Positions 36,008-59,399 of a stretch of DNA of 64,000 nucleotides are shown here, one piece after another. The position numbers and the translations under genes are program-made. Below the pieces are notes generated by a model. That model ran no database searches. It saw only the letters and a list, made by a program, of their open reading frames with translations, and was not told the DNA's origin. The DNA is taken from positions 36,043 through 100,042 of IMG/VR virus record IMGVR_UViG_3300007735_000797, one strand, 5' to 3'. The number at the start of each line of letters is the position of its first letter. Position 1 is the first letter of the stretch. Source of the DNA: a virus.

Positions 36008-36762
36008 TGGAAACCGTATCTATAGTTTTAAATTCATATCGAAGAACCAGATGGTTTATGGAACAATACCAAGCGATCAAAAATCAATCTGTTCCTATAA
36101 ATGAAATCTATGTGTGGCAAAATAAATCTGATTCCGAGCCAATAGACGCATCATATAAAAACGATGTAATATTTGCAGACTGCAATCAAAATTTAGGTGT
36201 TTGGGCAAGATTTGCATTAGCTTTAAATTGTAGATCAGATTACATTGCAATTTTTGACGATGACACAATTCCCGGATCAAAATGGATAGAGAATTGCTTG
36301 AACACACACAAAACTCATCCCGGATTGCTTGGTACTGTTGGTGTTATATTTGGTGACAAGTATTATACTTGGAACAAAGTGGAGCGTCTAGGTTGGTGTA
36401 ACTCAAACGAAACAGTGAAACAAGTTGATATAGTAGGTCATTGTTGGTTTTTTCATAGAGATCTTCTTTCTGTTTTTTGGAGAGAACTTCCGAGCAAAAA
36501 TCAAATACCAATTGTTGGCGAGGATATTCATTTTGCTAAAATGATACAAAAATATACTAATCAAGGGGTGTATGTTCCCCCCCATCCAACAAATGACAAG
36601 GAAATGTGGGGTAGTATAAAGGGAGAATCTTATGGACATAGTCAAGAGGCTATATCCATGAATTTGTATCAAGTTGGAAATATGAAACTTGCTGGTGGGC
36701 AGATGATGGCTATGGAACTTTCAAAAGCCGTTGATAATGGATTTAAATTACTAAGAGCATAA
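36007..36762 (+). CDS. Glycosyltransferase, GT2-type (GT-A fold)
   Basis: This 251-residue protein has a GT-A pattern: VSIVLNSYRRTRWFMEQYQA at the start, a DNA-sized spacer, and DYIAIFDDDTIPGSKWIEN (about 78-96), where DDD is the metal and nucleotide-sugar site. WFFHRDLLSVFWRELPSKN and GEDIHFAKMIQKY (about 174-187) correspond to the acceptor side; the ED pair may be the catalytic base region. It is located between a GT32-like gene and a WecB-like epimerase gene. Confidence 0.8.
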   Translation: METVSIVLNSYRRTRWFMEQYQAIKNQSVPINEIYVWQNKSDSEPIDASYKNDVIFADCNQNLGVWARFALALNCRSDYIAIFDDDTIPGSKWIENCLNTHKTHPGLLGTVGVIFGDKYYTWNKVERLGWCNSNETVKQVDIVGHCWFFHRDLLSVFWRELPSKNQIPIVGEDIHFAKMIQKYTNQGVYVPPHPTNDKEMWGSIKGESYGHSQEAISMNLYQVGNMKLAGGQMMAMELSKAVDNGFKLLRA

Positions 36763-56802: not shown

Positions 56803-57369
56803 ATGTACCAGCACCAAGACCATATTGGTGAATTTGATAAGGTAATGGTATTTGGAATTCAATCTTGCTCAGGAAGCGCGATGACTTTCCATGTCATGAC
56901 TGACTATGGATTGGTTAGAAGTAGAGTCCCAATCCACATGTTGTGCTGGAAACAAGATGCACCTCCTATGCCTCTGGATTATCTACAGCTGTGGGATTGC
57001 TTTCATGAAAATGTTTCTGTTGTAGAATATGATGCTTTATTTGATACAAGAGCAAAGGTTATTCTGAAAGATAAGTCAGAGCATTGGGGGGAATACGTTA
57101 TGACATTTGATTGGTATCGAAATTCTTATTCCGATGAACCATCTCAGTATAAATGTCTTCATATGATTGCTTTGGACAATGGCAACTACACTCTACAACC
57201 AAATAATAGAATCTATTGGAAGAATATGTCATTTGTAACTAAACCTTTTCCTACAAACCCGGATTTCAAGGTTGACAACAAGAGTTGGAGATGCGAGGGA
57301 GAAAGTGATCGCTGGATCATTGACGGACACGACGATAATTACTATTATGATATCAAGGAGAATAAATAA
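56803..57369 (+). CDS. Conserved marine T4-like phage protein of unknown function
   Basis: The ATG at 56803 has the ribosome-binding site AAGGA (56794-56798); a TTG-started longer frame would overlap gp43. It gives 188 residues starting [20 protein letters not shown], with [20 protein letters not shown] and a W-rich later half. I recall this pattern from marine T4-like phages, between gp43 and uvsX, without a known function. The aromatic-rich middle suggests a folded, soluble protein. It overlaps uvsX by 1 nt. Confidence 0.6.
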
Positions 57370-58274
57370 TGGATTTTTTAAAGGAAATGATTAATGCGTC
57401 TGGTAACAAATTTGCTAGCAAAGTCGAAGACGGTCTTGACGGATCTGATGTTGGTGGGTATGTTGATACTGGGTCTTATGCTTTTAATGCTCTTCTTTCT
57501 GGCAGTCTTTTTGACGGTTTACCTAATAACAAGATTACCTGTTTGGCTGGTGAGTCTGCTACTGGCAAGACTTACTTCAGCCTTGGTATCGTTGCACAGT
57601 TTCTTGCAGCCAACCCCGAAGGCGTAGTACTATACTTTGATACCGAACAGGCAGTAACTAGCGACATGTTTACAGAGCGCGGTGTGGATCCTACTCGCGT
57701 TGCTGTTTTCCCAGTAGAAACAGTTGAAGAGTTCCGCCACCAGTGCCTGACAATCGTTGACAAGGTTCTTGCGACAGACGAATCTGAGCGCAAGCCGATG
57801 ATGATTGTCCTTGACTCACTGGGCATGTTGAGCACTGCCAAGGAAATGAATGATGTCGCTGAAGGTAAGAATACCCGCGACATGACACGCGCACAAGTCA
57901 TCAAGGGAACCTTCCGTGTTCTTACGCTGAAGCTTGGCAAGGCCAAGATTCCCATGGTTATGACAAACCATACTTATGATGTCGTTGGTTGCCTATCAGA
58001 CGATGTCAATGTCCTAATGGAAGATGGAACGGTGAAGAATATCTCTGATGTTGTGGTTGGAGACAGAGTGGAAACAATGGGCGGATCATCCTCAGTTACC
58101 AAACTATTTTCGTATGATGTGAATGAAGTTATTGAAGTTGAACTAAGTGATGGTACAACTTTCTTTGCTACCCCAAATCACAAGTTTATGACAAGAGATG
58201 GTTCTTGGAAACCTATCTCAGACATCGGGGAGGGTGAGGATATTCTTGCTGTCGAGGAGTTTGCGAAGTCGTGA
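57369..58274 (+). CDS. uvsX: UvsX recombinase N-terminal part fused to intein N-half
   Basis: This is a 301-residue ORF with a good ribosome-binding site (AAGGAG). Residues 1-207 are UvsX/RecA: Walker [10 protein letters not shown] (61-69), [24 protein letters not shown] (Walker B) and [11 protein letters not shown]. At residue 208 the recombinase sequence stops and an intein begins with Cys: [20 protein letters not shown] and later [18 protein letters not shown] (block B, T-x-x-H). The ORF ends at codon 301. Joined to the downstream part, UvsX would be 336 residues, close to marine homologs. The protein would be inactive unless it is trans-spliced. Confidence 0.95.
57990..58271 (+). other. 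Split intein, N-terminal half (IntN)
   Basis: Codons 208-301 (94 residues) of the UvsX N-terminal ORF. Block A starts at the catalytic Cys (C1) after the extein sequence DVVG; block B is [10 protein letters not shown] with the conserved Thr and His. It ends where endonuclease domains are usually inserted in full inteins. Confidence 0.92.
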
Positions 58275-58856
58275 ATAAGGAATACCAATACTCTTCGCTG
58301 CCCATCGAATGCTTGGATATGAAACTCCATTCACGACAACTTCCTTTGATCTTGGATCACATAGGGACTTCTTTAGTTTGTATGAATCTGATGTTACCGA
58401 TTCCTTCCATTTTGTGGAGTTTCGTCTACCTTCAGATAATGCCTCTCCATCGTAGTTTTTTCGCAAAATGTCGGGGTCTATTGTCTTATATGTTCTACGA
58501 CCTTCTGCATATGCTTGCTTCAAAGAAATGGATCTTTTGGTACGGGATTGTTCTGAATGGATTTTTCCCTTCAGAGAATCTGAAATGTTTTTCTTCCAAT
58601 CAACCGAAGAGTCAGATTTTATGAACTTTTGGAATCCATCTTTGGCTAGTTCTATTCGTGTCACTTCTGCTTCTTCGGTCTTTCCGGAAAGCATTTTCCA
58701 AGCCACAAAGTCTTCTTGTTTGCCGTGTTTCTCATATAGGAGTCTGTGTGCTTCTGCGTGTTCTTTAACAGAAAGAAGAACAAGATTTGATGGGTCATCA
58801 GTTCCACCCATGTGTCTTGGTATTATATGATGTTTATGTTTTAAATTAATTTGCAT
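58218..58856 (-). CDS. HNH endonuclease inserted between the uvsX intein halves
   Basis: This 212-residue protein is on the opposite strand to all neighbours. [20 protein letters not shown] (residues about 7-26) is an HNH core, followed by [16 protein letters not shown] Ser/Lys-rich helical middle leads to a C-terminal IENR1-type helix-turn-helix ([20 protein letters not shown]). Its 3' end overlaps the end of the uvsX N-part by 57 nt tail to tail. It replaces the position of the endonuclease domain in standard inteins, so it probably drives homing of the split-intein cassette into intact uvsX genes. No clear promoter is seen. Confidence 0.9.
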
Positions 58857-58889
58857 TACCCCATATGTATGGTTTAGGAGATTTAAACA

Positions 58890-59009
58890 ATGAGTATTCT
58901 ACAAATAGTAAAAAAGACGGTACACACTAATCGTCCAACCAAGGTTTATGATTTTACTGTCGAAAACGACCACCACTATATTCTTTCCAACGGAGTTATT
59001 TCCCACAAC
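58890..59009 (+). other. Split intein, C-terminal half (IntC)
   Basis: Residues 1-40 of the second ORF. Block F ([17 protein letters not shown]) and block G (GVISHN followed by Ser) are present, with the penultimate His and terminal Asn needed for cleavage. The first 12 residues ([12 protein letters not shown]) serve only as its start. Confidence 0.92.
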
Positions 59010-59399
59010 TCTTATGTTCCAATGAAAGAACTAGGTGGTGGATCTGGTCTAAAATATGCGGCTTCTACTATCGTAACATTGTCCAAGAAGAAGGACAAGC
59101 AGGATGATGAAGTTGTAGGTAATATCATTACTTGCAAGCTTTACAAGAGCCGACTAACCAAGGAAAACAAGATCGTTCAGGTTCAACTGAATTTCGATAG
59201 CGGTCTGAACCGTTACTACGGTCTTGTTGACCTTGCCTTGGATTACGGTATCTTCAAGAAGAACTCTACCAAGATTGAGCTTCCTGATGGTACAAAGGTG
59301 TTTGAGAAGCATATCAACGAAGAACCTGAGAAGTATTTCACTCAGGAGATTCTAAAGCAAATTGATGAGCGCGTTCAGGAGGATTTCAAGTATGGCTGA
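58890..59399 (+). CDS. uvsX: Intein C-half fused to UvsX C-terminal part
   Basis: This is a 169-residue ORF with its own ribosome-binding site (AGGAG, 58876-58880) 9 nt before the ATG. Residues 1-40 are the intein C-half, with [20 protein letters not shown] then HN. The UvsX sequence resumes at S41: [20 protein letters not shown], which contains the L2-type DNA-binding loop, and runs to the normal C-terminus (129 residues). The +1 residue is Ser, so splicing would go through an ester at Ser. The insertion is just before the L2 loop, a highly conserved site. Confidence 0.95.

Follow-up and report, generated by a model that had tools for sequence, protein, structure and literature searches.

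A probable composite homing element with a split intein and an antisense HNH gene in a marine-phage uvsX

Fractured genes, in which split inteins are combined with a free-standing endonuclease, were reportedly described by Dassa et al. (NAR, 2009), and it has been suggested that split inteins arise by way of such genes. The uvsX recombinase gene described here lies in a 64,000-nucleotide stretch of viral DNA (the window; positions 36,043 to 100,042 of IMG/VR record IMGVR_UViG_3300007735_000797) that forms the end part of a 100,042-base record. It is encoded by two open reading frames (ORFs), 57369-58274 and 58890-59399, with an HNH gene running antisense between them. The locus is like the fractured genes of 2009 in that a split intein divides a conserved phage enzyme and the two halves enclose an endonuclease gene. 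It appears to differ from them in that the gene is uvsX, split at one exact position (hereafter site A), in that the HNH gene is antisense in all 20 HNH-bearing loci, and in that the leader of the HNH gene mimics the homing site.

Three further phage systems come close to this arrangement. In Pseudomonas phage MIJ3, an HNH gene lies between the split-intein halves of PolB (PMC6892783), so that a split intein and an HNH endonuclease gene are likewise found in a phage replication gene, but the host gene is a different one. The leader of I-TevI of phage T4 is similar to its homing site (15/20), and the homing-site-like leaders of I-TevI, I-TevII and I-TevIII overlap a late or middle promoter (PMC2988022). 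However, these are intron endonucleases (I-TevI of the GIY-YIG and I-TevIII of the HNH family), whereas the HNH gene described here lies inside a split intein, and the leader in the window has no consensus late promoter. SegA of T4 is a free-standing GIY-YIG endonuclease that cuts uvsX (PMC2988022). It is also a homing endonuclease aimed at uvsX from an adjoining position, but it belongs to another nuclease family, and the HNH enzyme of the present family is found both adjoining uvsX and within the intein. Each of these kinds is already known: the fractured gene, the HNH gene set between the halves of a split intein, and the free-standing enzyme that cuts uvsX. The apparent novelty lies in the site, in an HNH gene that is constantly antisense, in the mimicry by its leader and in the shift between two genomic states, although part of this may already be contained in the 2009 paper on fractured genes.

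The divided uvsX gene and its intein halves

The upstream ORF (UvsX-N; 57369-58274, plus strand, 301 aa; Pfam, PHROGs) consists of an N-extein of 207 aa and an intein N-half (IntN) of 94 aa. The downstream ORF (UvsX-C; 58890-59399, plus strand, 169 aa) consists of an intein C-half (IntC) of 40 aa including the Met, with its HN end at 59009, and a C-extein of 129 aa beginning with Ser. Each ATG is preceded by a sequence like a ribosome-binding site, AAGGAG (57356-57360) for UvsX-N and AGGAG (58876-58880, plus strand) for UvsX-C. Pfam detects RecA and Intein_splicing in the first ORF, Intein_splicing in the second and HNH in the antisense ORF, and the PHROGs labels at the locus are UvsX-like recombinase and homing endonuclease. 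An earlier reading of the DNA (the sequence-only reading) had proposed a recombinase made from two ORFs, each with its own ribosome-binding site, and these results bear it out. Its claim that the exteins, which sum to 207 + 129 = 336 residues, have the size of an intact marine-phage UvsX is also upheld: the joined 336 aa align over residues 1-336 with zero gaps to many intact UvsX proteins, including ones that are 94-97% identical, and 9gbg, a solved phage UvsX, runs uninterrupted across the position of the joint. Therefore, the joint is exact. A coincidence of two unrelated half-genes is ruled out by this gapless joint together with the conserved family. The same reading had placed the insertion just before the L2 loop. 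By homology with RecA, it presumably lies inside the L2 segment instead.

IntN (57990-58271, plus strand) starts with Cys1 at 57990 and carries TPNH as its block B; the Cys and the T and H of this block are conserved in seven diverse members. IntC ends with SHN at 59009, and the next residue is the +1 Ser (codon TCT, 59010-59012, plus strand). The marks of a canonical class 1 split intein, namely Cys1, TxxH, a C-terminal HN and a +1 nucleophile, are present in halves of 94 aa and 40 aa, just as had been read from the sequence. The closest solved structure to IntN is the gp41-1 split intein (6qaz). The sole intein match and the sole HNH match of the whole record are those at uvsX, and Pfam found no remnant of a LAGLIDADG endonuclease in the intein, the HNH match being the only one.

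Searches of IMG/VR with the HNH protein and both intein halves, a check that the sequence-only reading had suggested, identified 23 distinct loci whose uvsX carries a split intein at site A, which is defined as the exact uvsX insertion position of the window element. The HNH gene is present in 20 of the 23, antisense every time. L110 and L161 have the split intein but no HNH gene, and in L160 a C-terminal HNH scar and the leader motif are all that is left, both intein halves being open. L160 (1960-3516) derives from the L158 type by natural loss of the endonuclease. The aligned site-A members keep Cys1, the T and H of TxxH, the HN and the +1 Ser. The assignment to the fractured-gene type is thus supported by comparative evidence: an enzyme exactly divided over two ORFs, IntN and IntC with their catalytic residues, and a separate endonuclease gene between them. 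The two UvsX polypeptides would be made separately, and the intein halves would then associate and trans-splice to yield intact UvsX. Such trans-splicing is inferred because the catalytic residues are conserved, the halves are under purifying selection and the family is conserved.

The antisense HNH gene and its leader

The HNH gene (58218-58856, minus strand; Pfam, PHROGs) encodes the 212-residue protein that the sequence-only reading had placed on the opposite strand, running from 58856 to 58218. Its 3' end overlaps the 3' end of the IntN ORF by 57 bp (58218-58274), and the two ends usually overlap at other site-A loci too. The C-terminal part of the protein in family members is akin to DNA-binding modules of the I-TevI/I-HmuI type. 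HNH was matched in 22 of 24 family proteins, I-TevI_DNA-bd in 8, and the I-HmuI-like NUMOD, NUMOD1 and NUMOD3 in 4 each; in the window's own protein the domain match reaches HNH only. Structure models were made of the window proteins and of the proteins of the retrieved loci, and the model of the HNH protein is a confident one, with a pLDDT of 89. The protein is a predicted homing endonuclease that would cut intein-free uvsX.

The putative left half of the homing site covers the uvsX codons for NHTYDVVG (57966-57989, plus strand) and ends at the insertion point. The HNH leader (58853-58874, minus strand; AACCATACATATGGGGTAATGC) closely repeats this left half, extends into the start codon of the HNH gene and is the proposed operator. 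Among the 19 site-A loci with a readable leader, the leader repeats the 20-22 nt directly upstream of the insertion site, with a family mean of 14/20. In a free scan, the leaders were aligned independently, and each of their windows was set against all uvsX windows on either strand. Of the 81,316 pairs, the twelve best fall on a single diagonal, from uvsX -24 onward, and the mean identity of the best diagonal is 0.70 against a background of 0.25 (sd 0.05). Consistently, the best of 1518 windows in an anchored scan scored 0.67 and the runner-up 0.46, and matches to a locus's own leader exceed those to swapped leaders (p 0.003, kinship uncorrected). The leader motif is present in 21/21 uvsX-linked HNH genes and in 0/39 HNH relatives elsewhere. 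A 13-base motif occurs in just two copies in the 64-kb window, one at the homing site and one in the leader, where 0.04 would be expected. The T4-type late promoter TATAAATA stands next to the motif in 8/21 uvsX-linked leaders. The leaders of L107, L108, L171 and L172 contain the palindromic TATAAATATTTATA, which would place a late-promoter box on both strands in the gap between HNH and UvsX-C.

HNH genes of the same kind are also found outside inteins. In L236, L239/L240 and L254, such a gene lies antisense directly upstream of an intact uvsX and shares the leader motif. The uvsX site in this group reads NHVYASMGMFP, NHVYSSMGMFP or NHTYKEIGMFP; altered sites are expected if a host allele needs protection from its own enzyme. 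The free-standing HNH genes branch from within the intein-borne set, for which a single clade is rejected (p-AU 2.5e-4). Therefore, the HNH lineage has probably changed its state more than once. The idea of collaborative homing (PMC2988022) fits here, as the same endonuclease lineage is found free-standing beside its target gene.

The balance tips modestly towards the leader being a true operator, at which the HNH protein would repress its own gene, and perhaps also the divergent UvsX-C, via a decoy of the homing site. The protein would probably bind the half-site copy in the leader and so limit its own expression, by analogy with I-TevI. Several points weigh against this reading and against the homing role on which it builds. 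Single-locus shuffles are significant for the window element (p 0.002) and non-significant in several others; a chance likeness was set aside on the family-level scans, which are clear. The motif pattern was defined after the leaders had been viewed, the loci are related by descent and per-locus tests are accordingly not independent, and no TATAAATA was found ahead of the HNH gene in the window itself. In addition, the top hits of the fold search with the HNH model, the I-TevI DNA-binding domain and I-HmuI, have non-significant E-values (0.58 and 0.8), and this fold match was therefore not taken as proof.

The rival that survives best, though we regard it as unlikely, accepts a split-intein homing element but takes the leader copy for a functionless relic of the uvsX flank, picked up when the HNH gene was transferred. 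Members of the HNH lineage also occur next to uvsX and so have had opportunities to acquire uvsX sequence, and binding of the leader by the HNH protein is a prediction. However, the likeness persists between HNH genes of only ~42-60% identity, a distance at which DNA free of selection should have become random, and the motif is kept in free-standing and intein settings alike. The motif copy also survives the deletion of the HNH gene in L160, although a recent deletion would leave it in place anyway.

Movement of the element between uvsX alleles

The exteins and the element of the window have different closest relatives. Identity between the window and L083 is 68% in the exteins, 88% in the intein and 82% in HNH, versus 95%, 69% and 62%, respectively, between the window and L104, whose element is in turn near that of L155. 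The HNH data reject a pairing of the window with L104 (p-AU 1.75e-5), and the extein data reject a pairing of the window with L083 (p-AU 0.015). Because distances correlate best between intein and HNH (r 0.84; 0.71 and 0.80 with the exteins), these two parts appear to travel together. The dN/dS ratio is ~0.03-0.2 for IntN, IntC and HNH in nearly all computable pairs; by this measure, purifying selection acts on both intein halves and on HNH.

The flanks of the insertion carry a trace of their own. The +1 residue is Ser, the nucleophile required for splicing at this position, in the intein-bearing loci and Ala (GCC/GCT) in 29/29 close intein-free relatives, whose alleles are >90% identical. Among 102 uvsX alleles without an intein at the site, it is Ala in 51, Ser in 47 and Met in 4. 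The ±45 bp around the joint are more diverged than the 45-200 bp on each side (p 9e-5 vs L002), and the comparison with ten other alleles points in the same direction (p 7e-5 to 0.04). The intein-free L027 is 77.5% identical to the window to the left of the insertion and 97.1% to the right over 4.4 kb; L027 shares one metagenome with L082, a record identical to the window. This flank pattern is read as co-conversion plus a recombination boundary; nuclease genes that lie at the borders of exchanged segments are the general precedent (PMC10448857). To the points weighed above it must be added that ordinary recombination could also explain the step in identity with L027.

The whole is very likely a composite homing element in a marine-phage uvsX, composed of trans-splicing intein halves, an HNH enzyme for homing and a leader that probably limits HNH expression. 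The antisense HNH protein would recognise the uninterrupted uvsX around NHTYDVVG, and repair of the break from an element-bearing copy would bring the element into the recipient together with short flanks that include the +1 Ser codon. The tree conflict, the flank tract and the Ser/Ala pattern at +1 support homing with such copying of flanks. As judged from these sequence histories, the element is mobile and of the fractured-gene kind. Homing in T-even phages requires UvsX or RecA (PMC2988022), so the element would use, for its own spread, the product of the gene that it occupies.

It is improbable that the HNH gene is a passenger inactive at the site and that the intein half-genes are immobile or were moved by ordinary recombination only. 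L110 and L161, which retain the split intein without HNH, speak for such a passenger, but the divergence of intein and HNH is correlated, neither agrees with the extein tree, the leader resembles the site, and the free-standing relatives adjoin uvsX genes with altered sites. Still less probable is a non-covalent two-chain UvsX with vestigial intein halves, a gene in pieces like NrdA/MobE of phage Aeh1, whose split NrdA does yield a functional enzyme (PMC2988022): the aligned members show no change in the catalytic residues, dN/dS is low, and the +1 Ser was acquired with the element where close relatives have Ala. An assembly chimera or a decayed gene is hardly credible, even though L082, which has the same sequence as the window over 8.6 kb, was excluded as independent confirmation, because about 20 other separately assembled, diverged loci repeat the architecture, which makes chance or assembly error unlikely; moreover, the right flank is 97% rather than 100% identical to L027, and all three ORFs are open.

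Other interrupted uvsX genes and significance

In cultured Straboviridae (L144-L149), the annotation divides uvsX into two uvsX or recombinase genes and labels what lies between them as a homing endonuclease or as hypothetical; the pieces hold IntN and IntC. A uvsX fractured at this second site is present in Salmonella phage SEA1, Yersinia phage TG1, Vibrio phage EniLVp02, Enterobacter phage UFV01, Proteus phage Pm5461 and Klebsiella phage Lion_ER11. By their sequences, the pieces are very probably unrecognised split inteins. The arrangement is like that of the window in its two ORFs, its IntN and IntC and the endonuclease between them, but the insertion lies further downstream (GG|TG.MYSA) and the intervening gene is of the GIY-YIG type and on the sense strand. 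The HNH enzyme that the sequence-only reading had put between the uvsX halves therefore stands for site A, but HNH is not the sole kind of enzyme in this role, a GIY-YIG gene taking its place at the neighbouring site. Leader mimicry was not seen at the second site (a small control); as the sense-strand endonucleases there give no consistent match, mimicry was rejected as a rule for uvsX endonucleases. Among the papers searched, none joins 'split intein' with 'uvsX' and none reports a second-site fractured uvsX in cultured phages.

Some relatives carry more than one interruption. In L195 (1854-4317), uvsX consists of three ORFs, with two split inteins around a middle extein of ~13 residues (TQDLFSKQVGGGG), and one UvsX would need two trans-splicing events. 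In L178 (2935-3861) and L179 (2989-3939), the C-half of a site-A uvsX also holds a contiguous intein ~11 residues downstream, so that one UvsX would need one trans- and one cis-splicing event. In L181 (1360-3603), the P-loop of uvsX is broken by an apparent, atypically split intein with an N-half of ~20 residues, and a second split intein follows TNHVY. L167/L248 have, besides the site-A element, a ~1.5 kb interruption of uvsX at residue 64/65 in the P-loop. The uvsX halves of the window match two PHROG families, 8337 (DNA repair protein) and 18112 (recombinase), via intein residues, and both families may have been built from fractured uvsX genes.

The family supplies more than 20 new candidate split inteins, and it suggests that uvsX fragments in the records of cultured phages are unrecognised intein-bearing halves. 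The leader's copy of the homing site indicates which bases the enzyme should read, and this makes recognition, cleavage and self-control directly testable. A single site shows many states: intein-free, split with an endonuclease, split with a scar, split without an endonuclease, and intact with a free-standing endonuclease of the same lineage next to uvsX. If the leader is a true operator, an I-TevI-like circuit would operate in a split-intein element and be tied to the supply of the recombinase needed for homing, and the HNH module would switch between free-standing and intein-borne states with its operator retained.
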